34,391 nt of DNA. Origin: Robiginitomaculum sp. (lineage in GTDB: Bacteria > Pseudomonadota > Alphaproteobacteria > Caulobacterales > Maricaulaceae). Below are positions 4,061 to 26,812 of the stretch, piece by piece. A program made the translations under genes and the position numbers. Below the pieces are notes generated by a model that was not told the DNA's origin, did no database searches, and saw nothing but the letters and a program-made list of their open reading frames with translations. The DNA lies in NCBI GenBank assembly GCA_016765135.1, contig JAESQN010000050.1, positions 1 to 34,391 of the forward strand, read 5' to 3'. The stretch's first letter is position 1. Each line of letters starts with the position of its first letter.

Positions 4061-4316
4061 GAGTGAAGACCTTTTCGTAGTTGATAGAATCGACAAGAAT
4101 CGCTCGATCTGTATATCAACGCTTGCAAAAAGTACAGTTGCAGGAAATGACGTAGCTCATTTAGGCAACGAGACAGGCTATTTCATTTATGAAGTAGACA
4201 ACCGCCCAAACTTTGGCGGTATAATTGTGCTCGCTAAGGCCGCTTCATCAGAAGCGGCTGTGCGGTTAGCGGAAATGTGGATGTCAAAGACTAAGGCAAT
4301 GCACCAGTCGATTTAA
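4059..4316 (+). CDS. Hypothetical protein, 85 aa
   Basis: Small acidic to neutral protein (opening MSEDLFVVDRIDKNRSICI, with GNETGYFIYEVDN and AAVRLAEMW later). A good Shine-Dalgarno (TTTGGAG, 8 nt before the ATG) and sensible residue composition support it as a real gene. I see no signal peptide, membrane segment or motif I can name. Its ATG overlaps the start codon of the truncated gene on the opposite strand by 2 nt, and its 3' end overlaps the 3' end of rhuM by 26 nt in convergent orientation. It is therefore squeezed between two minus-strand genes. It may belong to the accessory island; the function is unknown. Confidence 0.55.
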   Translation: MSEDLFVVDRIDKNRSICISTLAKSTVAGNDVAHLGNETGYFIYEVDNRPNFGGIIVLAKAASSEAAVRLAEMWMSKTKAMHQSI

Positions 4317-5403
4317 TGGTTTCTATGGCCTTATCAAAATCTGATTTGTAGCTATCGTCTTGTATGGGCTTGAACTTAGTAAATTCTACAGCGGCAGTTT
4401 TATCTGCGGTCGTCTTCTTAACCCGCCCATAACCTCTCAAAATTTGATACTCGTTGAAGTTTAAGAAGTCATCCAGTTTGCTATGCCAGTCTTTCATGGC
4501 CATGCGTCTACCTTTCTGGGCAAGGTTCTCTGCATAATCTAAAAACATGGTCACGAGTCTGTTCAGGTCTGATACTTCGTCCTCAGTGAGGTAATTTTTA
4601 GCTACTGATACATCAGACTTACGAATTTTGCCGCCAGAGCCTTGGTTTGCCCAAGTGGTTAACCCCATATTCGGCAGGTTATGGTCTGCTCGAAGTTTAA
4701 CAATTTCGGCAGCGGTCATTCCCGTAACTGCGTATTCAAGTTTGTTTTGAGTATGGGAAAAGAATTTTTTTGTCAGATCAGATCTAGCGTCATAATCATG
4801 ACTACACTGAATGTAGATTTCAGTAACCTTTTGATAGAAACGCCGTTCAGACGCTCGTATATCACGAATGCGCTCAAGCAATTCATCGAAATAATCTTTT
4901 TCGAATAACTGACTTCCCTGTTTAAGGCGGGCGTCATCCATAGCAAAGCCTTTGACAAGGTACTCTCGCAAAATTGAACTAGCCCACTGCCTAAACTGAA
5001 TAGCTTTTCTAGAATTAGCGCGGTAACCTACAGATAAAATGGCATCGAGATTGTAATGTTCAACTTTATAAGTTCTGCCATTTGGTAGAACTGTTGCAAT
5101 TTTTGCAACAGTTCTATCTTTAACAAGCTCGCCAGAATCAAAAATGTTCTTTAGATGTCGAGAAACCCCTGATTTATCGATTCCAAATATTTCGGTCATC
5201 GCAGATTGAGTGACCCACACATCTTCATGGGCAACAAAAACCCGTATTTTATCAGCGCCATTACCAGAGCTATAAAATAGAAAGTCACTTTGTTCAGGTA
5301 TTTCAGGTGTGGCAAATGAAAGCGTTGTTGATGACATGAGATTATCAGCAATATCATCAAAATCCGCATCAATAGGTTCAATTATGCTTGGTACTTTAGC
5401 CAT
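4291..5403 (-). CDS. rhuM: RhuM family protein
   Basis: Full-length member (370 residues) of the RhuM ('virulence protein') family, common in pathogenicity and defence islands, often near restriction-modification genes; the molecular function is not established. Family hallmarks are all visible: the helix-turn-helix-like VWVTQSAMTEIFGIDKSGVS about residues 62-82, HLKNIFDSGEL, the YNLDAILSVGYRANS segment with FRQWASSILREYLVKGF, then DYFDELLERIRDIRASERRF, TGMTAAEIVKLRAD, PNMGLTTW, KNYLTEDE and the closing LDDFLNFNEYQIL. The N-terminus carries about 45 extra residues before the conserved core. Its ATG (5403-5401) overlaps the end of an upstream reading frame, as in a translationally coupled operon whose first gene has been lost to the IS1595-type element. 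Confidence 0.85.
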   Translation of the reverse strand: MAKVPSIIEPIDADFDDIADNLMSSTTLSFATPEIPEQSDFLFYSSGNGADKIRVFVAHEDVWVTQSAMTEIFGIDKSGVSRHLKNIFDSGELVKDRTVAKIATVLPNGRTYKVEHYNLDAILSVGYRANSRKAIQFRQWASSILREYLVKGFAMDDARLKQGSQLFEKDYFDELLERIRDIRASERRFYQKVTEIYIQCSHDYDARSDLTKKFFSHTQNKLEYAVTGMTAAEIVKLRADHNLPNMGLTTWANQGSGGKIRKSDVSVAKNYLTEDEVSDLNRLVTMFLDYAENLAQKGRRMAMKDWHSKLDDFLNFNEYQILRGYGRVKKTTADKTAAVEFTKFKPIQDDSYKSDFDKAIETIKSTGALP

Positions 5404-5506
5404 TAGTAAGTTCCTTATAAGTGAGGCGTTTGCCTATACCAGCTTTAATGGTAGAGGAAATAAAGTCGAGAGTCCCGGTTTTTGCGGCGTTTATGGCGAT
5501 TTGAAA
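5396..5506 (-). pseudogene. 3' remnant of the gene once upstream of rhuM
   Basis: A 36-codon open frame (containing AAKTGTLDFISSTIKAGIGK and RLTYKELTNG) ends in a TAA at 5398-5396 that overlaps the rhuM start codon in the arrangement ATGGCTAA. Such overlaps normally mark translationally coupled genes, and the sequence is protein-like. The frame ends abruptly at about 5506, exactly where the IS1595-type transposase frame stops resembling its family. I read this as the C-terminus of a gene truncated by the insertion. Whether it was a restriction-modification subunit, as rhuM context often suggests, cannot be told from 36 residues. Confidence 0.5.
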
Positions 5507-6107
5507 ATTCGTTCACATAGCGGTGTAAGGTTTGTGCCTTGGTATTCGGGATAGGTTTGGCAGTGACTTTTCCGCCGCGCTTTAATACACCAATGACAGC
5601 CGTTTTACCAACCGCACCACGGCCTTTATTGAGTTTCTTGCTCTTATGTTTGTTCTTTTCTTTGCCGCCAATAAAAGTTTCGTCAACTTCGATTGTGGAG
5701 CCGCTATCATTATCGGCATTACTATCGCTCGACAACCAACATTCACGAATACGTTGTGATAGAAACCAAACGGTCTTTTGAGTGACACCAAGTTCTTTAG
5801 CCATTTGTACGCTGGATATGCCTTTGCGGGCAGTTGTAAGCATATACATAGCCATTAGCCACTTGTGAAGTGGTAAGCGAGATTCAGCAAGCACTGTGCC
5901 TGTGCGAACGCTAAAATGCTTACGGCAAGATTTACAACGATAAGCCATTGGCTTGTGGTTTTTGGTTTCGGTAATGGTATGGCTACCACAGTGAGGGCAA
6001 ACAGGTTGACCAGCCCAGCGTTTTTCTTCGAAGTAAAGGCGAGCGGATTCCTCATTAGGGAATTTCTCAAAAAACTGATATAGGCTTATAGTTTCTGGCT
6101 TAGTCAT
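5445..6107 (-). pseudogene. IS1595-family transposase, C-terminally truncated
   Basis: 220 residues against a family norm of about 300. The N-terminal zinc-ribbon is complete (VCPHCGSHTI ... YRCKSCRKHFSV, about residues 36-66), followed by the helix-turn-helix-like region with SVQMAKELGVTQKTVWFLSQRI and the first catalytic acidic residue in STIEVDETFIGGKEK. The conserved GVLKRGGKV and NTKAQTLHRYVNEF are present. After this the protein runs into unrelated sequence (SNRHKRRKNRDS) and stops, so the later acidic and His/Asn residues of the ISXO2-like DDE domain are absent. It should be catalytically dead. Confidence 0.82.
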
Positions 6108-6294: not shown

Positions 6295-6765
6295 ATGAAA
6301 CCTCTTGATAAAATCGACAGAAAAATATTGCATGTCCTGCAAAAAAATGGGCGGATGTTTAATGTCGACTTGTCAAAACAAGTGAATTTAAGCCCAACAC
6401 CCTGTCTTGATCGTGTGCGCCGCTTAGAGCGCGACGGGTATATTGAAGGGTATCACGCCAAGCTCAATGCTGAAAAAATGAAAGTGAGCTTTCTGACATT
6501 TATGACGGTTTCCCTCGATCAGACGAATGAGGGGGTTTTTGAAGGGTTTAAAACTGCCATTGAAAACATTGATGAAATTGTCGAATGCCATATGGTCGGC
6601 GGCGGATTTGACTATCTTATAAAAATAAGAACGGAGTCTATGGCAGCCTATCGGCAGCTTATGGGGGAGAGGTTTTCAGAAATTCCGGGAATAGCTTCGA
6701 CCAACAGCTATTTTGTCATGGAAGAAATCAAGAACACACGGTTTTACAAAATTCCTGAAACCTGA
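6295..6765 (+). CDS. putR: Lrp/AsnC-family regulator, probable putA activator
   Basis: 156 residues with an N-terminal helix-turn-helix (LDKIDRKILHVLQKNGRMFN; DLSKQVNLSPTPCLDRVRRLE, residues 4-50) and a C-terminal RAM ligand-sensing domain (about 65-150, with VECHMVGGGFDYLIKI). This is the canonical Lrp/AsnC architecture and length. In alphaproteobacteria an Lrp-type PutR next to putA activates it in response to proline. Here the two genes are tandem on the same strand, with 148 bp of very AT-rich DNA between them, a plausible binding region for this family. The gene symbol rests on this context and could be wrong if the protein senses another amino acid. Confidence 0.82.
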   Translation: MKPLDKIDRKILHVLQKNGRMFNVDLSKQVNLSPTPCLDRVRRLERDGYIEGYHAKLNAEKMKVSFLTFMTVSLDQTNEGVFEGFKTAIENIDEIVECHMVGGGFDYLIKIRTESMAAYRQLMGERFSEIPGIASTNSYFVMEEIKNTRFYKIPET

Positions 6766-6913: not shown

Positions 6914-9900
6914 ATGTCCGCTTCCACTTCCAATAGAAATACGGTCAAGAGTTCCGCATCATTATCAAAAATGGCAATGGGTAAATATGCGCCAGAAACA
7001 GACATTGTTGAAGAGCTTTTGCGGGACAATAAAATTTCGGTGCAAGACCTGAAACATATTGAGACGGACGCAGTTTTTCTGGTGAAGGCTTTTCGCGCGC
7101 GGCCAGACAAGCAATCCATGCTCGATGCTTTTTTACAAGAATACGGGCTTTCAAATAAAGAAGGTATCGCCTTGATGTGTCTCGCCGAGGCCTTGTTGCG
7201 TGTCCCCGATGCCAAGACGCGTGATGATTTAATTGCCGATAAAATTGCGCCTGGTGATTGGGCATCCCACCTTGGAAATGCCAGCACGCTCCTAGTCAAT
7301 AGCTCAACATGGGGGTTGATGTTGACGGGGCGAGTGATTGCGCTGGACGCAGAATGGGCCGTTAAGCCTTCAGGGTTTATTGGCCGCCTGACTAATAAAA
7401 TAGGGGAGCCTGTTATCCGGCGGGCTGTCGGCCATGCTATGAAAATACTCGGCGGTGAATTTGTTTTGGGCGAAACGATTAGCCAAGCGATCAAGCGTGG
7501 CCAAGAGCTTTTTTCTCGCAAGCAAATTTATTCATTCGATATGCTGGGCGAAGGGGCCAGGACATATGGGGATGCTGACCGTCATTACCGTTCTTACCTC
7601 GAAGCCATTCGGCGCACGGGTGAAATCGGCGAAAAAGGATCTGTGCTGGAGCGTTCCGGTGTTTCAGTTAAGCTCTCGGCGATCCACCCGCGCTATGAAT
7701 ATGCCAACCGTGAGCAGGTCATAGAAAGCGTGGGGGCGCTGCTGTTGAAACTGGCGCGGGAAGCGGCGCACGCCAATGTAAAGCTGACCGTCGATGCTGA
7801 AGAGGCGGACCGGCTTGAATTGTCATTAGAGATTTTTGAGTTTGTTGCCCGCTCGCTTGATTTGACAAGCTGGCCGGGTTTTGGCTTGGCTATTCAGGCT
7901 TACGGCAAGCGGGCGCGTAGCGTTATTACCTGGATCGCCGATCTGGGAGCAGAACTGGAATGCAAATTCATGGTGCGCCTGGTCAAGGGCGCTTATTGGG
8001 ACGCGGAAATTAAACATGCGCAAGAATTAAGCCTGCCAAATTTTACTGTGTTTACACGCAAATCCACAACGGATTTATCCTATATGGTGTGTGCGCAAGA
8101 TATGCTGGCGCGGCGGGGAACTCTATTTTGTCAGTTTGCGACCCATAATGCCCACACTGTTGCTGCCATTATGCATCTGGGGAAAAACATGCCGGGCGCG
8201 TTTGAATTTCAACGTCTGCACGGCATGGGCGAAGCGGTTTACGCGGTTGCGCGAGACCATTTCAAGGATTTTCCGACGGTTCGTATTTACGCACCTGTCG
8301 GCGGGCATAAGGATCTTTTGGCTTATCTGGTTCGGCGCCTGCTGGAAAACGGTGCTAATAGTTCATTTGTTAATCGGTTTATGGATGCGAAGATTGCCCC
8401 TGAAGATGTTGTTCGCGACCCCGTAGAGATTACCCGAAATTTACCAATTGTCCCCCATCCGAAAATTTCAAACCCGGAAAATATATTTAGCCCTGAAAGT
8501 GTATCTGATATGTCCCGTTCTAATTCGAAAGGTTTCGACCTGACAGCGGCTAGTTCTATTGCCGCGCTACATACCGAAATTGACCGCCTCTATAAGGAAA
8601 CATTTCGGGTAAGCTCTCTGTTGGGCGGTACGGCCTTGACACCAAGGGACGAAGAAGGACACGAGGAAGCGGTTGTCAATCCTGCCAATACCCAAGATGT
8701 TTTAGGACAGGCGCAATGGGCAAATATTGATGATCTTGATGCGGCTTTTGACAAAGCAAAAACCGCGCAACCAGCTTGGGACTTGCGCGGCGGGGCGAAG
8801 CGGGCAGAAATTTTAAACCGCACCGCCGACATGCTTGAAGATCAAATGTTGCGCTTTATGGCTATTTTAATACGCGAGGCGGGCAAGACATATGATGACG
8901 CCGTCGCCGAAGTTCGCGAGGCTGTGGATTTTTGCCGCTATTACGCCCAGCGTGCCAAGGCCGAGTTTACAAAGCCAACAATGCTACCTGGGCCGTCCGG
9001 GGAGGCCAATTCTATATTGCTATGCGGGCGCGGTGTGTTTGTTTGTATCAGCCCGTGGAATTTTCCGTTGGCTATTTTCATGGGCCAAACCGTAGCCGCC
9101 CTTGCCGCTGGCAATAGCGTGCTGACAAAGCCAGCCGAGCAGACACCGATCATCGCCTTTGAGGCCGTTAAACTCTTGCACGAGGCTGGCGTCCCAAAAG
9201 ATGTGCTGATGATGGTGCTCGGCGACGGCGGCGTAGGCGCGGCATTGATTAAGCACCCTTCAGTCGCGGGTGTGGCTTTCACAGGTAGCACCGAAACCGC
9301 GAAGCGCATCAATCTGACATTAGCCGAAAAGCCGGGGCCTATTGTGCCCTTCATTGCGGAAACCGGGGGGCAAAATGTGATGTTTGTGGACAGCACGGCT
9401 TTGCTGGAACAAGTCACAGATGATGTAGTTCAGTCTGCTTTTAAATCTGCGGGACAGCGTTGCTCCGCCTTGCGGGTTCTCTATCTGCAAGACGATATCG
9501 CAGACGAGGCTATTGCCATGATTGCGGGCGCGATGCAGACATTGATACTTGGCGACCCGCGCCATCTTGTAACCGATATTGGGCCGATTATAGACCGGGG
9601 CGCAGCGGATATGCTCCAGCGGCATATTTCGGAGATGAAAGCGCACATGAAAACGAAAGGTTTGCCCGTCTATACAGTTCCGGCTCCTAAGAATCTCAAA
9701 CAGGGTATATTTGTCGTGCCGCATCTGTTTGAAATTGATGATATTGCACAATTGAAGAAAGAGCATTTTGGCCCCATCCTGCACGTCATTCGCTATAAGG
9801 CCTCGGATTTGGACGAAACTCTCAAGAGTGCTTTTTCGACAGGTTACGGCCTGACATTGGGCATTCATACAAGGATGGATCGCCGCTGGGCCAGCATTTT

Positions 9901-10108
9901 CAAAAAAGCGCCTGTCGGCAATACATATGTTAACCGCAATATTACGGGCGCGGTTGTCGGCTCGCAACCCTTTGGTGGTCAAGGGCTTTCAGGCACGGGC
10001 TTTAAAGCGGGCGGCCCCCGATATCTTTATAAATTTGCATCTGAAAAGACATTATCCGTGAACACCATGGCCTCGGGCGGAAATACTGAATTATTGACAC
10101 TGGATTAA
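6914..10108 (+). CDS. putA: Bifunctional proline dehydrogenase / L-glutamate-gamma-semialdehyde dehydrogenase
   Basis: 1064-residue PutA that oxidises proline to glutamate in two steps. No N-terminal ribbon-helix-helix DNA-binding domain is present, so it is probably not an autorepressor; the neighbouring Lrp-type regulator would do that job. The FAD-dependent proline dehydrogenase barrel (about 160-480) shows SVKLSAIHPRYE, LTVDAEEADRLE, RLVKGAYWDAEIK, FATHNAHT, FQRLHGMGE and RIYAPVGGHKDLLAYLVRRL. The aldehyde dehydrogenase half (about 570-1040) shows ISPWNFPLAIF, TGSTETAK, the general base Glu816 (AETGGQN) and the nucleophile Cys850 (SAGQRCSALR). Near the C-terminus is QPFGGQGLSGTGFKAGGP. 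The start at 6914 has only a weak Shine-Dalgarno; an in-frame ATG at 6971 is an alternative that removes 19 non-conserved residues. Confidence 0.96.
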   Translation: MSASTSNRNTVKSSASLSKMAMGKYAPETDIVEELLRDNKISVQDLKHIETDAVFLVKAFRARPDKQSMLDAFLQEYGLSNKEGIALMCLAEALLRVPDAKTRDDLIADKIAPGDWASHLGNASTLLVNSSTWGLMLTGRVIALDAEWAVKPSGFIGRLTNKIGEPVIRRAVGHAMKILGGEFVLGETISQAIKRGQELFSRKQIYSFDMLGEGARTYGDADRHYRSYLEAIRRTGEIGEKGSVLERSGVSVKLSAIHPRYEYANREQVIESVGALLLKLAREAAHANVKLTVDAEEADRLELSLEIFEFVARSLDLTSWPGFGLAIQAYGKRARSVITWIADLGAELECKFMVRLVKGAYWDAEIKHAQELSLPNFTVFTRKSTTDLSYMVCAQDMLARRGTLFCQFATHNAHTVAAIMHLGKNMPGAFEFQRLHGMGEAVYAVARDHFKDFPTVRIYAPVGGHKDLLAYLVRRLLENGANSSFVNRFMDAKIAPEDVVRDPVEITRNLPIVPHPKISNPENIFSPESVSDMSRSNSKGFDLTAASSIAALHTEIDRLYKETFRVSSLLGGTALTPRDEEGHEEAVVNPANTQDVLGQAQWANIDDLDAAFDKAKTAQPAWDLRGGAKRAEILNRTADMLEDQMLRFMAILIREAGKTYDDAVAEVREAVDFCRYYAQRAKAEFTKPTMLPGPSGEANSILLCGRGVFVCISPWNFPLAIFMGQTVAALAAGNSVLTKPAEQTPIIAFEAVKLLHEAGVPKDVLMMVLGDGGVGAALIKHPSVAGVAFTGSTETAKRINLTLAEKPGPIVPFIAETGGQNVMFVDSTALLEQVTDDVVQSAFKSAGQRCSALRVLYLQDDIADEAIAMIAGAMQTLILGDPRHLVTDIGPIIDRGAADMLQRHISEMKAHMKTKGLPVYTVPAPKNLKQGIFVVPHLFEIDDIAQLKKEHFGPILHVIRYKASDLDETLKSAFSTGYGLTLGIHTRMDRRWASIFKKAPVGNTYVNRNITGAVVGSQPFGGQGLSGTGFKAGGPRYLYKFASEKTLSVNTMASGGNTELLTLD

Positions 10109-10310: not shown

Positions 10311-10901
10311 ATGAATGAGACACCTAAAAACATTGAAAAACTATCAATGCAAGATGCCTTCATTGCGCATAGGGGTGTTTTGGTCGCTTATATCTCTCGG
10401 TACCTCCTCAATCCTGAAGATGTTGAGGATATTTTGCAAGAAACCTTTCTCAAATCTTTGGTGGCCAGTCGGCAGAAGGATATATTGTCCCCCAGGTCCT
10501 ATCTTTTCATAGTTGCCAGAAACTTGATGTTTGGCAAACTTAGAAAAAAATCCCGAGACATAATGAAAGAGATCGGCGAGATAGACGAGCGGTATCTTGC
10601 ATCAAATGACGTTCCCGCAGATATCAGCCTTCACCAAAAACAAAAAATGACGGCATTCATTACGGCGACGAACCAATTACCGTCTCAGTGTCGCCGGGTA
10701 TTTTTGATGCGAAAACTGATGGGTCTGTCACAGGTTGAGATTTCCCAAGAGCTGGGGATTTCCAAAAGCACTGTTGAGCGCCATATTACGAATGCTATAA
10801 AGAAATGCCAACTGATCATGGCCAAAGAGGGATATGAGGTAGGTGTAAAGCATACGGATAAAACGCTGGTTCCACTAAAGCAGGTACGTGCAGATGACTG
10901 A
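10311..10901 (+). CDS. FecI-type ECF sigma factor
   Basis: 196 residues with sigma region 2 at about 13-80 (LVAYISRYLLNPEDVEDILQ; ETFLK; SPRSYLFIVARNLMFGKLRK) and region 4 at about 125-175 (LPSQCRRVFLMRKLMGLSQV; EISQELGISKSTVERHITNA). This is the FecI pattern: a small sigma factor released by a FecR-type membrane anti-sigma factor when an outer-membrane receptor binds its ligand. Its last codons overlap the start of the FecR-like gene, and a TonB receptor with an STN domain follows, so the trio is a complete cell-surface signalling set. I saw no obvious Fur box in the 200 bp upstream, where the only structure is a small hairpin (CAGATA-CTGC-TATCTG, 10165-10180). Confidence 0.92.
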   Translation: MNETPKNIEKLSMQDAFIAHRGVLVAYISRYLLNPEDVEDILQETFLKSLVASRQKDILSPRSYLFIVARNLMFGKLRKKSRDIMKEIGEIDERYLASNDVPADISLHQKQKMTAFITATNQLPSQCRRVFLMRKLMGLSQVEISQELGISKSTVERHITNAIKKCQLIMAKEGYEVGVKHTDKTLVPLKQVRADD

Positions 10902-11988
10902 CGAAAAAGGAAAAATCACAAACTTGAACACAAGCCTGGACACAAGTGCTATCACAGCGGAGGCTGCATCGTGGGTAGCGCAGCTTGATGGTGAAAGCAT
11001 AAACAATGCTGATCGGTTAGCTCTAAGAGAGTGGGCGTCAAGAAGCCCAAAGCATATGTCTGAACTTCGCCGGTTGGGTGAAATATGGCTTGATATAGAC
11101 GCCGTACTAGAGGCCGAAATTCAAAAATTTGGTGTGCGCCCGTCATTAAGAGGGGTGACGGCTGCAGCCATTAAAACAAGACCCAAAGCGGCTTCGGGAC
11201 TGACCGCGATTGCAGCGGCATTACTTTTTGTCTGCGCGTTTATTTGGGTGTCCCTGCCAAATACGTCTGAGGCTCCCCCCGTTCAAATCGTCTATAGTGT
11301 CCCGTACGGCGAAAACAAGGTCTTTAATTTGGACGATGGTTCCACCATTCATGCGAATACAGATAGTTTTCTTGAGGTCGAGTATAATCAAAAACAACGC
11401 ATCATTAGACTGATTAAGGGCGAAGCTTATTTTGACGTCGCACATGATGCTAAAAGACCCTTCCTTGTTTACGCCAACGGCAGTATCGTCAGGGCTGTGG
11501 GCACGGCATTTTCAGTTCGTATTGGTGTTGGCGAAACCTCTGTCATTGTGACAGAAGGCAAGGTGGAATTGATCAGTATAAAGCGCGGCTCTGCCCAGCA
11601 AAGCAAGTCAGATATTGCCGTCAAGCCGAGAAAAAAACCGACGTTCGTTTCGGCCAAAGAAAGCCTTACCATTACTGCGAAAAATATTGATTTGGTCGCA
11701 GAAGTAAAACCCATTAGTGAGGACGTCATTAACAGAAAACTAGCCTGGCGTCAGGGGTTGGTCATATTTGAAGGTGACCCGCTTGTTGATGTGGTTGACG
11801 AAATTTCGAGATATACTGATTTCCAAATCATCATCTCCGACCCGGAAATAAGAAATATTCCTATTGGTGGTGCGTTTCCGGCAGGTAAGGTGGACGCTCT
11901 GTTGGGAGCGCTTCAAACATCATTTGGCATATCAGTAGAACGTGTTAGTGATGATGTTATCTATCTTAAAAAGGCGGTGGATAATTAA
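10894..11988 (+). CDS. FecR-type anti-sigma / sigma-regulator membrane protein
   Basis: About 364 residues. The N-terminal cytoplasmic domain (DUF4880-like; ITAEAASWVAQLDG, ADRLALREWASRSPKH) binds the sigma factor. One membrane segment follows at about 101-121 (GLTAIAAALLFVCAFIWVSL). The periplasmic FecR domain comes next (YSVPYGENKVFNLDDGSTIH; GEAYFDVAHDAKRPFLVYAN; VRAVGTAFSVRI), and the C-terminus resembles DUF4974/STN (AWRQGLVIFEGDPLVDVVDE). The ATG at 10894 overlaps the sigma-factor stop by 8 nt (a GTG at 10888 is also possible), so the two are translationally coupled. The expected partner is the STN domain of the receptor encoded next. Confidence 0.92.
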   Translation: MTDEKGKITNLNTSLDTSAITAEAASWVAQLDGESINNADRLALREWASRSPKHMSELRRLGEIWLDIDAVLEAEIQKFGVRPSLRGVTAAAIKTRPKAASGLTAIAAALLFVCAFIWVSLPNTSEAPPVQIVYSVPYGENKVFNLDDGSTIHANTDSFLEVEYNQKQRIIRLIKGEAYFDVAHDAKRPFLVYANGSIVRAVGTAFSVRIGVGETSVIVTEGKVELISIKRGSAQQSKSDIAVKPRKKPTFVSAKESLTITAKNIDLVAEVKPISEDVINRKLAWRQGLVIFEGDPLVDVVDEISRYTDFQIIISDPEIRNIPIGGAFPAGKVDALLGALQTSFGISVERVSDDVIYLKKAVDN

Positions 11989-12009: not shown

Positions 12010-12117
12010 CCTTTATGTTATTATGAATTAACACACATTAGTTTTGGGGGTTGCTCCGCTCCCACGGCTCTTTATGTACGAGCCTCTGGAACAAGAGTGT
12101 CGTAAGAAAGGAGGGGG

Positions 12118-15000
12118 ATGATATATCGGTGGAATCGATTGTTACTAACGCTAGTCGTATCGGCCACAGCAAATTTTGCTGTGCTGGCGGCAGCGACAGA
12201 AACAGCTTATGATATTCCAGCACTGCCTTTGGCAGATGCTTTAAATCAGCTAGCCCAACAATCTAATCGACCTTTGCTTTTCCCTTACAATGATGTGCGT
12301 TTGCTGAAAACTGGTGGTGTTTCTGGCAATCACACATTTGAAGACGCACTTGACCTTTTGCTGACAGGCACTGGTCTTCAGGCTCACATAACCAAAGAGG
12401 GGGTTATGACAATTGTTGTCATAGCTGAACCTGATATTACGGAGCAGGAAGACATAATGAAAAAACTATCAATTAAGAATAAACTCATCAGCGGAGCTTC
12501 GGCAGTCATTATTGCCAGTACTTTACCCGCGCAGAGTATTGCACAAACACCAGACGCACCTACAATTAATAATGATGAAATCATTGTTTTAGGGTCGCGC
12601 CGTGCGCAAGTTCGCTCAACATTGACGGCCCCCGTTCCTGTTGATGTTATTACAGCCGAGGACCTTACCGCACAAGGCAGCACAGATATTATTGATACGC
12701 TTATTTCCGTTGTACCGTCCCTAAATGCTAACCGTGAGCCGATTAGCGATGCCGCTACATTGGTGCGCCCCGTCAATCTTCGGGCTTTGCCAGCCGATCA
12801 TACACTGGTGCTTGTGAACGGTAAACGCCGCCACAGGGGCGCTGTTGTCGGCGAGTTTGTTTCGGGTGTAAACCGGGGCGCGCAAGGCGTCGATATTAAC
12901 CCTCTGTTTGGAGCCAGCCTAAAGTCTGTCGAAATTCTTCGTGATGGTGCTGCGGCGCAATATGGTTCAGATGCCATCGCTGGCGTTATCAATTATTCAC
13001 TTCTTGATGATCCGGACATCCGCCAAGTGACATTGCAATACGGTCAGGCTTATGCGGGCGACGGTACAACGATAGAAGTTTCTGGAGCGTTTGGTTTTCA
13101 TCTGGGCGATGAAGGTTTCTTGACACTGGCCGTACAGCTTAAAGATCAAAACCCGACTAGCCGGGGTGTCCAGGACGGCGAAGGCACGAATAGTGGTGCG
13201 TCGGCCCTGCAAGCCGCAGGTTTTCCGGTAGCCGACCCTGTGGTTGTTTGGGGACAACCCGAGGTTAAGAATGATTTTAAATTTGCCCTAAACTCTGCAA
13301 TCCCTGCGGGTGCAGGTGAAGTTTATCTATTCGGAACCTATGCGACCCGCGAAGTTGACGGTAGTTTCTTCTATCGTAACCCAACGAACCGGGCTGGCGT
13401 ATTTGCCTCTGATGGCAATGCTCTATTTGCTGATCTAACGGGTGCAGGATGTCCCGTTGGTGCCCTTCCAACAGGAAGCTTTACCGCTGCGCAGGCCTTT
13501 ATTGATAGCGCGCCGGACAATTGCTTTTCGTTCTTCAATCAATTTCCGGGCGGATTTACCCCTCGTTTTGGCGGCACAGTGGACGATCAGGCACTGACGG
13601 CAGGTTTTAGAGGCGATACGGACGGCGGACTTGGCTATGACTTCAGTGTTGGCTTTGGGTCTAACAATGTCGATTATAGAATTTCAAACACCGTCAATGC
13701 CTCTTTGGGGCCAAACACCCCGACCAGCTTTGAACTTGGGGCGCAAACGCAATCCGAAATCGTTGCCAATGCCGATTTTACCTATGGTGTTGACATGGGT
13801 CTTGCTTCAGATCTGAACGTGGCATTTGGTGCTCAATACCATACCGAGGAATTTGAAATTACGGCAGGTGAACCTGCGTCTTTTGCGGTTGGCCCGTTTA
13901 TTGATCAAGGTTTCTCCGCAGGCTCAAACGGATTTCAAGGTTTTAGCGATGACGTTGCGGGCGCATTCGAACGCAATAGTGTCGGCCTCTATCTTGATTT
14001 GGAAGCTGATGTCACAGATAATTTCATCCTCACAGGTGCGGCGCGATATGAAAGCTTCTCTGATTTTGGTGATACATTTAACATTAAAGTAGCCAGCCTT
14101 TATCAGTTCAATGATAATTTTGCCGTTCGCGGCTCGTTCAGTACGGGTTTTCGTGCGCCTACTTTAGGGCAATCAAACCTACAGCGTTCCTCTACCGGTT
14201 TTGACGCCGGGCAATTGATTGAACAATTGGTAATCGCCAGCACAAATCCGATTGCGGAATTCTTTGGCGGCGGTCAACTCGATTCGGAAAAAGCTCGAAA
14301 TATTAGTTTGGGCTTTACAGCGAGACTTGGTGCTTTGAGTTTCACTGCTGATTATTTCGACATCAAAGTAGATGACCGGGTGGCGTTAACGTCATCTGAT
14401 ATTAGCGATGCAGACCGCGCAACGCTCATTGCAAGCGGGCTCCCTGAAGCTGCGACGATCAGTAATGTTCAGTTCTTCGTGAATGATTTTGATACAAAAA
14501 CCAGCGGTTTTGATATTGTGGCTAACTACCCAATCTCCTCTGATTTTGGTGACACCAAATTTACACTGGCTTTCAATTATAATGATACGCAAGTCACAAA
14601 TCGTGGTGCAACAATTGATGATGGCAGACAGCGCGAAATCGAAGATGCGCTGCCGTCAACGCGGACAACATTTACGGCGTCTCACGATGCGGGTGCGTTC
14701 GATGGTCTTGTACGGCTAAACCTCTTTGGTGAAGCCTTCGAAAACCTGTTTAATGACAGCACATTGCCGGTTGTGACGCCATCTTTGCTTATTGTGGATG
14801 CCGAAATCGGGTATGAGATCAATGATCACTTCCGGGTCGCGGTTGGTGCTAAAAACCTGTTTGATACTTTCCCGGCTGAGTGGGCAACAGCTGGTTTCAC
14901 GGGTCGTGACGGTGGATTTTTGGGAGCAATTTATCCTCTGAACCACCCCGCAGGCTTTAACGGTGGTAGCTATTACCTCCGCATAAGCTCAAACTTCTAA
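12118..15000 (+). CDS. STN-domain TonB-dependent receptor with internal second signal peptide
   Basis: 960 residues behind a very strong Shine-Dalgarno (AAGGAGGGGG). Order of parts: signal peptide 1 (residues 1-27, LLLTLVVSATANFAVLAAA), an STN signalling domain (about 30-105, YDIPALPLADALNQLAQQSN; FEDALDLLLTGTGLQ), then a second Met114 followed by a complete signal peptide (KKLSIKNKLISGASAVII; ASTLPAQSIAQ, to about 143). Next come a TonB-box-like DEIIVLGSRR, the plug (VPVDVITAEDLTAQGSTDII; VRPVNLRALPADHTLVLVNG; EILRDGAAAQYGSDAIAGVI) and a beta-barrel ending in the expected aromatic (YYLRISSNF). With the sigma/anti-sigma genes just upstream, it should import a TonB-dependent ligand and report its binding. 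The ligand is unknown. The internal signal peptide is abnormal: signalling receptors normally run directly from STN to TonB box. Confidence 0.93.
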   Translation: MIYRWNRLLLTLVVSATANFAVLAAATETAYDIPALPLADALNQLAQQSNRPLLFPYNDVRLLKTGGVSGNHTFEDALDLLLTGTGLQAHITKEGVMTIVVIAEPDITEQEDIMKKLSIKNKLISGASAVIIASTLPAQSIAQTPDAPTINNDEIIVLGSRRAQVRSTLTAPVPVDVITAEDLTAQGSTDIIDTLISVVPSLNANREPISDAATLVRPVNLRALPADHTLVLVNGKRRHRGAVVGEFVSGVNRGAQGVDINPLFGASLKSVEILRDGAAAQYGSDAIAGVINYSLLDDPDIRQVTLQYGQAYAGDGTTIEVSGAFGFHLGDEGFLTLAVQLKDQNPTSRGVQDGEGTNSGASALQAAGFPVADPVVVWGQPEVKNDFKFALNSAIPAGAGEVYLFGTYATREVDGSFFYRNPTNRAGVFASDGNALFADLTGAGCPVGALPTGSFTAAQAFIDSAPDNCFSFFNQFPGGFTPRFGGTVDDQALTAGFRGDTDGGLGYDFSVGFGSNNVDYRISNTVNASLGPNTPTSFELGAQTQSEIVANADFTYGVDMGLASDLNVAFGAQYHTEEFEITAGEPASFAVGPFIDQGFSAGSNGFQGFSDDVAGAFERNSVGLYLDLEADVTDNFILTGAARYESFSDFGDTFNIKVASLYQFNDNFAVRGSFSTGFRAPTLGQSNLQRSSTGFDAGQLIEQLVIASTNPIAEFFGGGQLDSEKARNISLGFTARLGALSFTADYFDIKVDDRVALTSSDISDADRATLIASGLPEAATISNVQFFVNDFDTKTSGFDIVANYPISSDFGDTKFTLAFNYNDTQVTNRGATIDDGRQREIEDALPSTRTTFTASHDAGAFDGLVRLNLFGEAFENLFNDSTLPVVTPSLLIVDAEIGYEINDHFRVAVGAKNLFDTFPAEWATAGFTGRDGGFLGAIYPLNHPAGFNGGSYYLRISSNF
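12441..12459 (+). promoter_or_regulatory. Internal ribosome binding site and ATG inside the TonB receptor gene
   Basis: GGAGCAGGAAGACATAATG places an AGGA Shine-Dalgarno 7 nt before an in-frame ATG (12457-12459, codon 114). The ATG opens a textbook signal peptide (KK, hydrophobic core, AxA-like end at about residue 142). It could direct synthesis of a shorter receptor lacking the STN domain. Confidence 0.5.
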
Positions 15001-19112: not shown

Positions 19113-20330
19113 TCATGACAAAAACTTTCGCGCTTTGTGGACGGCTTTTACCAGCCGGTCTACTTCGTCCTCGGTGTTGTAAATGCCGAAACTGGCACGG
19201 GCGGTAGAATGAACGCCAAAGCTTTCCATCAAGGGCTGAGTGCAATGCTGCCCGGCGCGAATGGCAATGCCGTATTTGTCAACAATTTGCGCAATGTCGT
19301 GGGCGTGTGCGCCTTCCAATGTGAAGGATAATACCGCGCCTTTGTTAGGCGCATCACCAATAAGCTTGAACGCGTTAACCTCACGAAGGCCCGCCAAGGC
19401 GCGGTCATAAAGCTTCATTTCGTGGGCTTCGATCTCGGCCCGGTCATATTGGTTCAACCAATCAATAGCCGCTCCCAGCCCGATAGCTTCGATGATCGGC
19501 GGCGTGCCTGCCTCGAATTTATGGGGGATGTCAGCATAGGTAATGCGGTCTAAAAACACATCTTCTATCATCTCGCCGCCGCCTTGAAATGGCAACAGAC
19601 GTTCCAACATTTCCCGCTTGCCGTATAGTGCGCCAATACCGGTGGGGCCATATAATTTATGCCCGGTCATCGCGTAAAAATCCGCATCTATATCCAGCAC
19701 ATCCACCGGGAAATGTACCGCCGCCTGGGTGCCGTCCACCACGAAAATACAGCCCTTGTCATGGGCGGTTTTGGCCATAGCCTTAACCGGGTTTATGGTG
19801 CCCAGAACATTGGACATATGGACGACCGACACGATTTTTGTGCGCGCCGTAAACAGGTTTTCATAGGCTTCCAGATCCAATGTACCGTCCGCGTTAACTG
19901 GCACCCATTTGATTACCGCCCCCAATCGTTCGCGCAAAAAATGCCACGGCACGATGTTGGAATGATGTTCCATTTTTGTCAGGATTATTTCGTCGCCCGC
20001 TTTAATCTCGCCCATCAAACCATAAGCCACCAGGTTCAAGGCTTCGGTAGCTCCTTTGGTAAATATGATTTCATTTGCTTCTGCCGCCCCCAGGAACTGA
20101 CAAACCTTTTGTCGGGCCGCTTCAAAAGCTTCGGTGGTCTCGTTGGCCATTGTGTGCAAGCCTCGGTGCACATTGGCATAGCTGTGCTGCATTTGGCCTT
20201 GCATGGCTTCGATCACTGCCGCCGGTTTTTGGGCACTGGCCGCATTGTCAAGATAGGCCAAAGGCTTACCGTTTATTATGCGCGACAGGATCGGAAATTC
20301 GGCGCGGATATTTTCCACATTCAAGCTCAT
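19113..20330 (-). CDS. sufS: SufS group II cysteine desulfurase
   Basis: 405-residue PLP enzyme that takes sulfur from cysteine for Fe-S assembly. The PLP Lys225 lies in AMTGHKLYGPTGIG and the persulfide Cys363 in AIRAGQHCTQPLMESFG, the SufS (type II) arrangement. The motif KMEHHSNIVPWH (about 119-130) and the C-terminal ASFGIYNTEDEVDRLV are also typical. No SufE is seen in the window. The start codon overlaps the sufD stop (ATGA), indicating translational coupling. Confidence 0.96.
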   Translation of the reverse strand: MSLNVENIRAEFPILSRIINGKPLAYLDNAASAQKPAAVIEAMQGQMQHSYANVHRGLHTMANETTEAFEAARQKVCQFLGAAEANEIIFTKGATEALNLVAYGLMGEIKAGDEIILTKMEHHSNIVPWHFLRERLGAVIKWVPVNADGTLDLEAYENLFTARTKIVSVVHMSNVLGTINPVKAMAKTAHDKGCIFVVDGTQAAVHFPVDVLDIDADFYAMTGHKLYGPTGIGALYGKREMLERLLPFQGGGEMIEDVFLDRITYADIPHKFEAGTPPIIEAIGLGAAIDWLNQYDRAEIEAHEMKLYDRALAGLREVNAFKLIGDAPNKGAVLSFTLEGAHAHDIAQIVDKYGIAIRAGQHCTQPLMESFGVHSTARASFGIYNTEDEVDRLVKAVHKARKFLS

Positions 20331-21358
20331 GAATTTTGCTCAAGCCAGGCTGTGATGCGGGACATGAAATCCTTATTGTCATCCATGCCGTCAAAAGCTC
20401 CGGCCACGAAAGCCTGGGTCAAAAGCGCGCGGGCCTCGCCCAGAGGAATGCCCCGTGTACGCATATAGAACAGTGCCGTTTCGTCCAGCGCACCTATGGT
20501 ATTGCCGTGGGCGCAAGCCACATCATCGGCGTAAATCTCCAGCTCTGGCTTGGCACGTATATGGGCCGTGTCCGACAGCATAATCGCGTCGTGGCGCATC
20601 TCCGCATCAGCTAATTGTGCCGGGCGGCGCACATGGAACTTGCCCTGAAACACACCCCTTGCCTTATCGGTGACAACGCCCTTGACCGATTGACGAACGC
20701 GAGCATTTTCCGCGCCCAGATCAATATAACTGGTCATGTCCAGATGGCGTTTACCGCCGAGCAAATACGCCCCATGAATGTTGCATTCAAAATCTTTGCC
20801 CAGCGCCGCAATCCGGGTTTCGAATCGGGTTAATCCAGCCCCGAAACCCAAACTATGCTGCGTAATTTTTGCTCCGCCCCAGGCACTGATATGGGTGGTA
20901 GCTATGCGGGTGGTTTCCGCGTGGTCGTCTTGCAAAATGGTGCGGGTTAGATGCGCACTCTCGGCCAGATCAAAGCTGACCTCGATATTGACAAAGCTTG
21001 GATTGTTACTGTTATGGGTTTCAACCACATGTAATTTCGCACCCTTACCAAGTTTAAAAACAATACGGGCATGACCGGAATTCAGCCCGCTAATATTGAC
21101 ATGTTCACCGGATGTAAAACCGTCCGGCACGATAATACTATAGGCATCGCCAGCAAAATTGGCGGCCAACTTGCCCATCACACTATCACCGGGAGATTTG
21201 ATTTCGCGGGTAACAATCAGGCCAGTCGGCACGGTCAATTTCGGCTCACAAGCAGACGTTAATCCAGACTTCTCGCCCCCCAAAGCCGCACGTACATCCG
21301 TCCATTTCCAGGCTTCCATACGGCGGTGCGGAAGGGTTTCTATGATAGCTTTGGTCAT
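20327..21358 (-). CDS. sufD: SufD, scaffold subunit of SufBCD
   Basis: 343 residues with the right-handed beta-helix SufB/SufD core and the characteristic C-terminus: KGVVTDKARGVFQGKFHVRR, DDVACAHGNTIGALDETALF, YMRTRGIPLGEARALLTQAF. The N-terminus has HRRMEAWKWTDVR, where SufD usually has a YRTE/EAWKYT-like motif. SufD partners SufB and the ATPase SufC in the cytoplasmic scaffold. A run of ten C (21362-21371) lies just upstream of the start and may be prone to slippage or sequencing error. Confidence 0.94.
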   Translation of the reverse strand: MTKAIIETLPHRRMEAWKWTDVRAALGGEKSGLTSACEPKLTVPTGLIVTREIKSPGDSVMGKLAANFAGDAYSIIVPDGFTSGEHVNISGLNSGHARIVFKLGKGAKLHVVETHNSNNPSFVNIEVSFDLAESAHLTRTILQDDHAETTRIATTHISAWGGAKITQHSLGFGAGLTRFETRIAALGKDFECNIHGAYLLGGKRHLDMTSYIDLGAENARVRQSVKGVVTDKARGVFQGKFHVRRPAQLADAEMRHDAIMLSDTAHIRAKPELEIYADDVACAHGNTIGALDETALFYMRTRGIPLGEARALLTQAFVAGAFDGMDDNKDFMSRITAWLEQNS

Positions 21359-21371
21359 GACGCCCCCCCCC

Positions 21372-21396
21372 GTTCATCCCCATGACAATGGGGAAC
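21372..21396. repeat. Small hairpin between sufC and sufD
   Basis: CCCCAT-GACA-ATGGGG, extended by GTTC/GAAC. It sits in the 129-bp gap together with one copy of the 29-bp repeat. It might fold in the mRNA and adjust relative output of sufC and sufD. Confidence 0.45.
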
Positions 21397-21438
21397 CAGC
21401 GTATAAAGAGTGCGCAAAGCGCACACATGATTTCTCAC

Positions 21439-21467
21439 TGGATACCCGCTTTCGCGGGTATGAGCGG
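21439..21467. repeat. 29-bp palindromic repeat, single copy downstream of sufC
   Basis: The core is the perfect hairpin ATACCCGC-TTTC-GCGGGTAT, flanked by TGG and GAGCGG. The same 29-mer occurs twice more, as an inverted pair, at 22262-22333 upstream of sufC. It is a REP-type element. Confidence 0.85.
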
Positions 21468-21487
21468 AGAAAAAAGAACGTGTTAGT

Positions 21488-22234
21488 TCAAGCCGCATAT
21501 TTGTCATAGCCTTCTTTCTCAAGCTGCTTTGCAAAGTCCGCCCCGCCGCTGGCGACGATTTTTCCGGCTGACAGCACATGCACCCGGTCGGGTACGATAT
21601 AATCCAAAAGCCGTTGGTAATGGGTAATAATCAACATGCCGCGCTCAGGGTTACGCAGGGCGTTGACCCCGTCGGCGACAATACGCAATGCGTCCACATC
21701 CAGCCCGCTATCGGTTTCGTCCATGATGAGAAATTTAGGCTCCAGCATCATCATCTGAAATATTTCCATGCGCTTTTTCTCGCCGCCCGAAAACCCGACA
21801 TTGAGGGGGCGTTTGAGCATGTCCGGTTTGACCTTGAGATCCGCTGCAATAGCGCGGGCTTTTTTCAAAAACTCCGGTGCGGACATCGGTTCTTCGCCGC
21901 GTGCTTTAAGCTGTGCGTTTAGCGCCGTGCGCAAAAAATGCATGGTCGGCACGCCGGGAATTTCCAGCGGATATTGAAACGACAAAAACAACCCCGCCGC
22001 CGCCCGTTCTTCGGGTAACATGGCGAGCAAATCCTGGCCTAGATATTCAGCACTGCCCCCGGTGACATCATAGCCGTCCTTGCCCGTAAGCACATAAGAC
22101 AAAGTAGATTTCCCAGACCCGTTAGGCCCCATAATAGCATGGACTTCGCCAGCCGGAACTTCGAGGCTAAGCCCGTTCAATATAGTCTGTTGGCCATCAT
22201 TCACAGTGGCCGTTATGTTGTTAACTTTTAGCAT
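21488..22234 (-). CDS. sufC: SufC, ABC-type ATPase of SufBCD
   Basis: 248 residues with the complete ABC ATPase motif set: Walker A GPNGSGKST (36-44), Q-loop LFLSFQYPLEIPG, signature VGFSGGEKKRMEIFQM, Walker B FLIMDETDSGLDVDAL and the switch His in IITHYQRLL. The YPLEIPGVP Q-loop stretch is a SufC hallmark. It drives conformational change of SufB-SufD. Gaps on both sides are filled by 29-bp palindromic repeats, unlike the tightly packed rest of the operon. Confidence 0.96.
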   Translation of the reverse strand: MLKVNNITATVNDGQQTILNGLSLEVPAGEVHAIMGPNGSGKSTLSYVLTGKDGYDVTGGSAEYLGQDLLAMLPEERAAAGLFLSFQYPLEIPGVPTMHFLRTALNAQLKARGEEPMSAPEFLKKARAIAADLKVKPDMLKRPLNVGFSGGEKKRMEIFQMMMLEPKFLIMDETDSGLDVDALRIVADGVNALRNPERGMLIITHYQRLLDYIVPDRVHVLSAGKIVASGGADFAKQLEKEGYDKYAA

Positions 22235-22261
22235 TTTTCACTTTCATAATTCCTAAATTTT

Positions 22262-22333
22262 CCGCTCATACCCGCGAAAGCGGGTATCCAGCTTGATATC
22301 CAGATGGATACCCGCTTTCGCGGGTATGAGCGG
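22262..22333. repeat. Inverted pair of the 29-bp repeat upstream of sufC
   Basis: Two perfect 29-nt arms (22262-22290 and 22305-22333) in opposite orientation around a 14-nt spacer. Each arm is itself a hairpin (ATACCCGC-TTTC-GCGGGTAT), so the region can fold as two small stems or one long stem. It lies between the second cupin gene and sufC. Confidence 0.88.
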
Positions 22334-22364
22334 GGTTTGGGGCAGTGGTGTATATGGGTGCCCA

Positions 22365-22892
22365 TCATTCTTCACCGTCAAAATAGTCTGCGGCTCCAAC
22401 GCCGATTTTACCGAGATGGTGGAATTTAGCATCTCTTGAGGAACCGCCTTGGGGGATATCTGCGCCGACCAGAAATTTGTCTGAATCCGGGTAGACCACA
22501 ACGGACGTGCTGCCATTGGTAGAGAACGCCAGATATTTTAGATCGGTTTTCCCTGTATTGATCAATTGGTGGGCCACTTCCGCCCCACCCGGCGGTGCGC
22601 CCAACATATCGCCGGCTTTGACGGGATATGTGGCATCGCCAAACCGGTATTCGCCGCTTCCGTCCAGGATAAACATCATTTCATCATCAAGCAGGTGCGC
22701 GTGAAACGGAAAGGCACATTTGCCGGGCGGCACTATGGTTAGCATACAGCCCAAATTTTTCGCACCCAAAGCAGGCCCGAGCCGACCAAGTTTGGCGGCA
22801 AATTTTTCACCGTTTCCAAACTCTATCATCGGCACATCATCAATGTTAAGCACGGGCGGGTTTGGTTTAGTTTTTGGCTTGGTATTTGTCAT
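22365..22892 (-). CDS. Cupin-domain protein in SUF operon
   Basis: 175 residues with one cupin barrel. The two cupin motifs are PPGKCAFPFHAHLLDDEMMFILDG (metal-binding His-His-Glu pattern) and GDMLGAPPGGAEVAHQLINT. No signal peptide. It lies 9 nt after the preceding small cupin gene, so the two are surely co-transcribed with the SUF genes. Small cupins of this type are found as isomerases, dioxygenases or binding proteins; the substrate cannot be read from the sequence. Its place between sufB and sufC is not part of the standard operon. Confidence 0.85.
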   Translation of the reverse strand: MTNTKPKTKPNPPVLNIDDVPMIEFGNGEKFAAKLGRLGPALGAKNLGCMLTIVPPGKCAFPFHAHLLDDEMMFILDGSGEYRFGDATYPVKAGDMLGAPPGGAEVAHQLINTGKTDLKYLAFSTNGSTSVVVYPDSDKFLVGADIPQGGSSRDAKFHHLGKIGVGAADYFDGEE

Positions 22893-22901
22893 GTGAACCT
22901 C

Positions 22902-23270
22902 CTATATCCAAACATCATTAGGCGCATTGTATTTGTCTGCCACATCTGCGTCGCCATTGTTTTTTGTGGCTTTGGGTTCGATCAGAAATACCTGGGCTTC
23001 ACCGTGGGCTACGGGGCGGTGCTCAACGCCCCTCGGGACGACGATGGCCTCACCTGTGCTTAACTCGACTTTATGGGTGCGAAATTCCAGGGTGATATTG
23101 CCCTTCCAGATAAAAAACATTTCGTCTGCGTCGGCATGGCTGTGCCAAGGGTATTCGCCCTTAATCTTGGCCAATTTAAATTCCTGCCCGTTCAGCTCCG
23201 CCACGATTTTCGGACGGAAGTGCTCCGAGAACAAAGAGAATTTTTCGTCAATGTTGATTTTATCAATCAT
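22902..23270 (-). CDS. Small cupin-domain protein in SUF operon
   Basis: 122 residues, essentially one cupin barrel. Motif 1 is YPWHSHADADEMFFIWKG, with the two His and the Glu of a metal site; motif 2 is GEAIVVPRGVEHRPVA, with the second-motif His. The fold resembles mannose-6-phosphate-isomerase-like small cupins. It begins 4 nt after the RidA-like gene stop and ends 9 nt before the next cupin, indicating a tight three-gene block. Function unknown. Confidence 0.85.
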   Translation of the reverse strand: MIDKINIDEKFSLFSEHFRPKIVAELNGQEFKLAKIKGEYPWHSHADADEMFFIWKGNITLEFRTHKVELSTGEAIVVPRGVEHRPVAHGEAQVFLIEPKATKNNGDADVADKYNAPNDVWI

Positions 23271-23274
23271 CTCC

Positions 23275-23673
23275 CTAACCCTTAAACGCCGTGACTTCGA
23301 TCTCGACTTTCATGCCGTCTTCAATCAAACCCGCAATTACCATTGTTGCGGCGGGTTTTATGGCGCCGAATGCGCGCTGGAGTTCGGGCTGGATTTGCTC
23401 GATCACATCGCGGCTGGTCACCGTGTATTGCACCCGCACCACATGACCCATTTCAAACCCGGCGGCTTGGAGGGCGGCGTCGATTGTGGTGACGGCATTG
23501 CGGGTTTGTTGGGCGGCGCTTTCTGGCATTTTCCCGGTTTCGTAATTCGTGCCGGTTGTGCCCGATACAAAACAAAAATCACCCTGAGCCACGGCCCGTG
23601 AATAGCCAAATTTGACCTCCCACTCAGAGCCGCTGGACACATGTTTACGTGTTGGCTTTTTGGTTTTAGACAT
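23275..23673 (-). CDS. RidA/YjgF-family protein lacking the catalytic Arg
   Basis: 132 residues with the YjgF/Rid fold: the GDFCFVSGTTG strand, QQTRNAVTTIDAALQAAGFE and the closing KVEIEVTAFKG. Archetypal RidA hydrolyses reactive enamines such as 2-aminoacrylate made by PLP enzymes, using an Arg in the PARS segment. Here the equivalent reads KPAATMVIAGL, so the Arg is replaced by Ala, and deaminase activity is doubtful. It most likely belongs to one of the Arg-less Rid subfamilies of unknown function. It is 36 nt downstream of sufB, and the two cupin genes follow immediately. Confidence 0.88.
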   Translation of the reverse strand: MSKTKKPTRKHVSSGSEWEVKFGYSRAVAQGDFCFVSGTTGTNYETGKMPESAAQQTRNAVTTIDAALQAAGFEMGHVVRVQYTVTSRDVIEQIQPELQRAFGAIKPAATMVIAGLIEDGMKVEIEVTAFKG

Positions 23674-23709
23674 TGTGTTTTCCTTTAAATATTTCTGTGA
23701 TGAAATTAT

Positions 23710-26354: not shown

Positions 26355-26812
26355 TATTCCGCCGCCTCCATCTTGGCCACTAATTCGGGGCAAATTTGCG
26401 GGAAACGCTGGTCAATGACATCCTGGATAGATATGGCGTCCAAAAACCCTTCAATATGGTCTTCCATCGCTTGCCACAGATCATGGGATAGACATTTCGC
26501 ACCTTTAACTGTGCAACCAATCCCCGTATCGCCGCAGCGCTTGGTCTGGATTTCCTCCTCAACCGCCCGCATGACGCTGCCAATATATATATGACTGGCA
26601 GGCGCGGCCAATTTATACCCGCCTTGGGCGCCGCGTTCGCTGTCCACAAGGCCAGCCTTGCGCAATTTTCCAAACAATTGCTCCAAAAATGCCAGCGAAA
26701 TATCCTGACGCAGGGAAATGTCCGACAAGCTGACAGCGCCTTGATCTTTGCTCGAAACGGCAATGTCGGTGATGGCCATAACAGCGTAACGGGCTTTGGC
26801 GGTCAGTTTCAT
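26354..26812 (-). CDS. iscR: IscR, Rrf2-family Fe-S-sensing repressor
   Basis: 152 residues with an N-terminal winged helix (MKLTAKARYAVMAITDIA; ISLAFLEQLFGKLRKAGLVD; RGAQGGYKLA) and three cysteines (Cys93, Cys100, Cys107 in the KRCGDTGIGC-TVKGAKCLSHDLW region) that would ligate a [2Fe-2S] cluster. Holo-IscR represses Fe-S assembly genes, so the operon is expected to rise on iron starvation or oxidative stress. It is the first gene of the SUF operon, and a matching operator lies about 175 bp upstream. Confidence 0.95.
   Translation of the reverse strand: MKLTAKARYAVMAITDIAVSSKDQGAVSLSDISLRQDISLAFLEQLFGKLRKAGLVDSERGAQGGYKLAAPASHIYIGSVMRAVEEEIQTKRCGDTGIGCTVKGAKCLSHDLWQAMEDHIEGFLDAISIQDVIDQRFPQICPELVAKMEAAE

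Follow-up and report, generated by a model that had tools for sequence, protein, structure and literature searches.

A conserved internal start and a second signal peptide suggest that one TonB-dependent transducer gene yields a signalling and a transport-only receptor

The TonB-dependent transducers FecA, FpvA, PupA/PupB, FoxA and HasR, which are receptors of cell-surface signalling, have, to our knowledge, one start and one signal peptide each. N-terminal extensions of TonB receptors have been described as either of the transducer type or Oar-like (PMC1790865). In the PUMA3 system, VreA is portrayed as a barrel-less protein with a TolA/TonB-like C-terminal domain and with a domain of the STN type that is proposed to act on a FecR-type regulator (PMC2729926). 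For Pseudomonas FoxA, the observation of two bands led the authors to propose cleavage of the signalling domain, and the overproduced domain stabilises the anti-sigma factor (PMC11637429). Two proteoforms from a single frame, the short one devoid of the N-terminal part, are described for CheA (long and short), infB and CcmM, and the same source mentions short forms of the exported proteins OmpX and PagC that come without a signal peptide (PMC11005335).

Here, we describe a receptor gene in a stretch of DNA of 34,391 nucleotides (the window) that resembles the known transducers in its domains and its neighbours. The features are as follows.

10311 to 10901, plus strand: gene for a FecI-like ECF sigma factor (Pfam Sigma70_r2 and Sigma70_r4_2; NCBIfam ECF superfamily model over its cut-off)
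10888 to 11988, plus strand: gene for a FecR-like anti-sigma regulator (Pfam FecR, 6.9e-18; FecR_C, 1.8e-6)
12107 to 12117, plus strand: Shine-Dalgarno-like aaaggaggggg of the long form (from the sequence)
12118 to 15000, plus strand: putative long form, a 960-residue STN TonB-dependent receptor (predicted 101.7 kDa as precursor, 98.9 kDa when mature)
12118 to 12195, plus strand: signal peptide 1 (SP1), residues 1-26 (from the sequence, by eye)
12199 to 12429, plus strand: STN signalling domain, residues ~28-104, Pfam core 57-99 (PF07660, E 8.2e-9; phmmer matches to PupA and PupB)
12441 to 12450, plus strand: internal Shine-Dalgarno sequence ggagcaggaa, with AGGA at 12446-12449 (from the sequence; duplex energy -5.8)
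12457 to 15000, plus strand: putative short form, an 847-residue receptor from an internal ATG (predicted 89.5 kDa as precursor, 86.5 kDa when mature; from conservation of start and Shine-Dalgarno over 94 genes)
12457 to 12543, plus strand: signal peptide 2 (SP2), residues 114-142, likely cut before Gln143 (by homology; cut site by eye)
12574 to 12594, plus strand: TonB-box-like DEIIVLG, residues 153-159 (by eye)
12625 to 12987, plus strand: plug domain, residues 170-290 (Pfam PF07715, 1.7e-15)
13540 to 14859, plus strand: beta-barrel, residues 475-914 (Pfam PF00593, 4.4e-35)

The receptor frame lies directly behind the FecI- and FecR-type genes on the same strand; for the sigma factor, FecI-named NCBIfam models score below their cut-offs. 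What is expected of a TonB-dependent transducer is found here: an N-terminal STN domain, a plug and a barrel (Pfam), a TonB box (by eye) and ECF sigma and FecR-type neighbours. The STN core exceeds the Pfam cut-off, and residues 28-96 and 28-90 match the solved STN domains of PupA and PupB, respectively. The plug region differs from the STN half in its nearest solved proteins, which are BtuB and the ferric enterobactin and colicin I receptors. None of these three receptors is known to have an STN domain. A usual, if not strictly defining, trait of transducers is absent, namely a single signal peptide with STN running straight to the TonB box. In its place, codon 114 is an ATG (12457-12459), the upstream ggagcaggaagacata provides AGGA at a spacing of 7 nt, and residues 114-143, MKKLSIKNKLISGASAVIIASTLPAQSIAQ, consist of a basic n-region followed by a hydrophobic core and S-I-A ahead of Q. 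This succession of SP1, STN, a Met114 with its own Shine-Dalgarno, a complete SP2 and a TonB box in one 960-codon frame had been pointed out in a first-pass annotation, and sequence, Pfam and homology bear it out. Elsewhere, the window holds a gene for a RhuM-family protein (4291-5403; Pfam PF13310, 1.1e-102), an IS1595-family transposase gene (5445-6107) near genes for an Lrp-type regulator (6295-6765) and the proline dehydrogenase PutA (6914-10108), and, on the minus strand (19113-26393), SUF-type iron-sulphur assembly genes encoding two SufBD-core proteins, an ABC ATPase and two class-V aminotransferases.

We propose that this gene gives rise to a pair of outer-membrane receptors, of which the long form signals and the short form serves transport only, and regard this as the best explanation, with a probability of about 0.8. 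Initiation at 12118 would yield the long form, exported via SP1 with STN ahead of the plug, which would talk to the FecR protein encoded just upstream; in this form, SP2 would serve as the linker between STN and the TonB box. Initiation at 12457 would yield the short form, exported via SP2 as a complete receptor without STN, which could take up the same ligand and would be unable to signal. We infer that both proteins are made, in a certain ratio and with separate tasks, and that the Sec channel lets the long form through in one piece. Two products with an internal start were one of two readings offered in the first-pass annotation, and this reading is best supported by the conservation of start codon, Shine-Dalgarno and frame over 94 genes.

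The origin of SP2 can be traced in the window's own family, where the protein was matched with an E-value of 1e-60 or better in 90 of the 137 genomes searched. We compared the 29 best-ranked relatives (L005-L033) from these 90 matching genomes. All are receptors and none has an STN domain; in 24 of them the alignment begins exactly at the residue equivalent to Met114, and in 28 the reading frame is closed by a stop no more than 47 codons ahead of the alignment. The exception, L009, has 308 open codons upstream, likewise without STN. Since most of these alignments to STN-less receptors start at the Met114 equivalent, the SP2 segment is homologous to N-terminal signal peptides. Judged by this homology, SP2 is a signal peptide by descent. 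The first-pass annotation had asked whether close relatives lack codons 1-113, and these best 29 lack STN; the outcome named there as refuting, homologues in which residues 114-143 are conserved as a plain linker without signal-peptide features, did not arise. Further down the ranking of the same search, at least two genes do combine STN with a second signal peptide (G109:C1 and G033:C96).

Profiles built from six, later fifteen, double-signal N-termini were run alongside Pfam STN searches on genomes of the family (137), the class (386), the phylum (397) and three further families (167, 62 and 29). From 332 loci, 225 distinct STN frames were extracted, and a rule based on hydrophobicity, basic residues, a cut motif and the absence of a TonB box upstream called 95 of them double-signal. 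Revision by eye removed three false calls (L148, L264, L202) and admitted two genes (L258, L260), giving 94; L178, likely a genuine double-signal gene, failed the rule and is kept outside this number. There are thus at least 94 double-signal genes, from 72 genomes, 36 genera, 8 families and at least two classes of the phylum. By family they comprise 39 genes in f185, 26 in f5, 15 in f176, nine in f1, two in f207 and one each in f9, f121 and f114, where f185 and f207, of the same phylum and another class than the window, are by inference Gammaproteobacteria. As the searches were aimed at the double-signal architecture, 94 of 225 is no prevalence. Clustering at 50% identity leaves 39 clusters, and SP1 with the usual start passes a simple rule in only 84 of the 94 genes. 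We consider it probable that these genes form a widespread and hitherto unnamed class of signalling receptors, in at least two classes of one phylum, probably Alpha- and Gammaproteobacteria, with dual starts that each have a signal peptide and with translation setting the ratio of signalling to transport, and that the arrangement occurs in several receptor families and is gained or lost as a unit.

The genome of the window contains a second double-signal STN receptor (L035, G000:C7:60000-70000, frame from 4096); its third STN receptor is an ordinary one. Behind its SP2, L035 has an apparent Oar-like extension (carboxypeptidase-regulatory type, by eye), so that both known types of N-terminal extension occur in one gene. 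Another genome of the same genus, G109, has five double-signal receptors (L166, L167, L168, L169 and L038). A scan of genome contigs with the full protein returned one distant locus (L034). A plasmid search with the N-terminus of a relative gave three weak matches, the first of them ordinary, and one with the N-terminus of the window's receptor gave no match. Regulatory neighbours recur across the class: of the 94 double-signal loci, 73 have a FecR-like gene upstream in the same orientation (in 72 as the immediate neighbour) and 16 more have one on the opposite strand, divergently, which amounts to 89 of 94. In the other five, no FecR-like gene was found within the upstream DNA covered (2.7-3.2 kb for three, 1.3-1.4 kb for two). 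Of 129 other STN frames, 119 directly follow a FecR-like gene of the same orientation.

All 94 genes have a start codon at SP2 (ATG in 71, GTG in 20 and TTG in 3). In a fixed interval, stretching between the last acidic residue and the hydrophobic core and set without regard to codons, a start codon is found in 86 of the 95 rule-called genes (62 ATG, 20 GTG, 4 TTG). When equal intervals were drawn at random from the same receptors 1000 times, the count averaged 28.4 and never exceeded 43. Six of the nine genes without a start in the interval have one just upstream, and the remaining three are the false calls. The codon choice itself is informative: in the 33 of 95 genes that have no ATG in the interval, 21 of the 28 valine codons are GTG (GTT 6, GTA 1), while GTG makes up 24.7% of valine codons in the receptor bodies (binomial 3.2e-8, with relatedness ignored); in the same 33 intervals, TTG accounts for 7 of 18 leucine codons, as against 16.1% in the bodies. 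Given the excess of GTG among the valine codons, a protein-level need for valine in the long form cannot explain the bias. The search profiles contained a Met column and so mildly favoured ATG, but did not favour GTG over other valine codons.

A second signal lies upstream of these starts. The duplex energy of the Shine-Dalgarno has a mean of -6.53 ahead of the picked starts and of -2.26 ahead of other positions with the same codon within the same genes (p 7.4e-14). When the codons are redrawn synonymously, the mean is -3.97 (p 2.4e-13), and, as the redraws pair more weakly, the pairing goes beyond what the amino acids require. The 9-mers pair best if they end 5 nt before the start, which is normal spacing, and local RNA structure at the internal start is weaker (-4.0 versus -8.1), where GC content is also lower (0.39 versus 0.48). 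A linker start combined with a Shine-Dalgarno of -6 or better occurs in 62 of 94 double-signal genes versus 19 of 131 other STN frames; the figures are 72 versus 36 at -5 and 52 versus 13 at -7. The gene in the window has an internal Shine-Dalgarno of -5.8, weaker than the class mean and matched by equally low values upstream of 13% of the gene's codons; likewise, the first six genes ranked by Shine-Dalgarno were unremarkable (0.13-0.57), and the signal appeared only in the larger set. The Shine-Dalgarno signal is statistical over the double-signal class, and that of the window is moderate. In some genes (e.g. L234, L246, L325 and L330) a candidate other than the picked start looks better by eye, and five of the 39 clusters mix ATG with GTG or TTG. 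Altogether, the internal start and its Shine-Dalgarno show signs of selection across the 94 genes, although a conserved initiation site does not by itself prove a product.

Two genes have lost these elements. L335 (in G1294) and L336 (in G1249) extend two genes first seen as L226 and L231. Compared with double-signal receptors, L226 shows 73% identity over 696 residues and L231 shows 74% over 671. In both, the internal start is replaced (by CTA and TTA) and the former hydrophobic core is an ordinary linker, and the long frames are intact with 1125 and 1094 codons. Start and SP2 have been lost together here, so the long frame can persist without SP2. The pair offers a ready-made comparison for experiments.

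Other explanations of the architecture have to be weighed against two starts. Only or mainly the long protein might be made, and signal peptidase might cut it at SP2, freeing STN as a periplasmic protein and leaving the receptor alone. The end of SP2 carries, by eye, a good cleavage motif, and a built-in cut would fit the cleavage model put forward for the FoxA signalling domain (PMC11637429). Neither a start codon nor a Shine-Dalgarno is needed for such a polyprotein, yet both are conserved, with GTG favoured among valine codons, and L335 and L336 kept the long frame after losing SP2. By the rules of membrane topology, SP2 in the long form would be oriented the wrong way for regular cleavage, since its N-terminal side would already be outside. 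We consider the polyprotein unlikely, although cleavage at SP2 and dual initiation could operate together. An outcome of still lower probability is a chance sharing of one frame by two genes, for a small STN protein and for a receptor, with the joined product as a by-product. Each half does have its own Shine-Dalgarno, start and signal peptide, and split genes may be under-seen, because most searches were aimed at joined ones. A stop between STN and SP2, however, is seen in none of the six STN frames, out of 225, that end within 350 residues past STN with a stop inside the locus. The short frames found later were rejected as split STN genes: L333 is a decayed copy broken inside SP2, L334 stops shortly past STN and its frame holds no second signal peptide, L342 meets a contig end, L341 is an STN protein with a TonB-like end and L343 is a broken copy. 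In a search of the 137 family genomes with Pfam STN alone, none of the four listed frames below 600 codons (G116, G119, G109:C11 and G008) has a second signal peptide. STN as a separate gene in relatives, which the first-pass annotation had envisaged, was not seen in intact form among the matches listed, most of which come from searches favouring joined genes. As observations on their own, L341 (G262:C1, frame from 1431) and L144 are STN proteins of 220 and 280 codons without a receptor, and L341 is VreA-like in having, by eye, a TonB-like C-terminal part.

Between STN and the internal start lies a linker of 5 to 29 residues (median 12); its being in frame in 94 of 94 genes is only suggestive, since the searches would mostly show in-frame cases. 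Median dN/dS is 0.17 for STN (47 pairs), 0.21 for SP2 (48 pairs) and 0.06 for the plug region (69 pairs), all from non-independent pairs; as far as these ratios indicate, the STN part is under purifying selection. They also bear on a reading in which only the long form is made, and SP2 and its start are a vestige left when an STN module was fused to a complete receptor. Such a fusion accounts for the origin of the segment, which is homologous to the signal peptides of STN-less receptors. A vestige should decay, yet SP2 has the low median dN/dS just given, is present in 92 distinct versions among the 94 genes from 36 genera, and, where it did decay, start and hydrophobic core went together. This makes mere vestigiality highly improbable, more so than a chance sharing of the frame. 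An artefact of assembly or a frameshift joining two genes in the contig has a negligible probability and is refuted by the same architecture in G000:C7 of the same genome and in genes of 72 genomes.

A fusion origin also entered the second reading of the first-pass annotation, according to which an STN module had recently been joined to a complete receptor, so that a cut at SP2 would free STN. The joining holds up, given the homology to STN-less N-termini; its recency lacks support, the architecture being common to the window's family and a family outside its class. In the receptor tree, L039 from the window's family groups with L294 and L301 from that outside family at full support, which implies that the architecture is old or was transferred. 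In this tree, whose entries for L010 and L022 probably represent wrong frames, the window's receptor sits on a long branch at an open fork, with STN-less receptors to one side and double-signal receptors to the other; by identity it is nearer the STN-less receptors. With the receptor so placed and the architecture old or transferred, a recent fusion is unproven. The STN tree requires 15 changes between double-signal and other STN frames, compared to ~72 with shuffled labels; owing to its few columns, one origin and several are indistinguishable on it.

If two receptors are indeed made from one gene, those with and without STN would be separable in their roles by a single codon change, gene finders would be recording just one of two receptors for such genes, and bacteria would offer a clear case of N-terminal proteoforms that both keep an export signal. 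No earlier description of double-signal receptors was found in the open-licence literature, which is weak evidence of absence.

In comparison with known systems, the locus shares STN, plug, barrel, TonB box and FecI/FecR-type neighbours with FecA, FpvA, PupA/PupB, FoxA and HasR, and is distinguished from them by what lies between STN and the TonB box, namely an internal start that is conserved and heads a signal peptide of its own. It resembles VreA in pairing an STN-type domain with a FecR-type regulator; here, however, STN is in frame with a receptor whose barrel is recognised by Pfam, so that the locus is not of the VreA type. With FoxA it would share the coexistence of receptors with and without the signalling domain, brought about in FoxA by the proposed proteolysis after synthesis and here by a proposed second translation start. 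The closest likeness in translation is to CheA, infB and CcmM, whose proteins are not known to be exported: two proteoforms are proposed from one frame, the short one minus the N-terminal part, and, as in CheA, an internal start with a Shine-Dalgarno at normal spacing is conserved in relatives. Unlike the short forms of OmpX and PagC, the short form proposed here would carry a signal peptide of its own and is expected to arrive at the same membrane.
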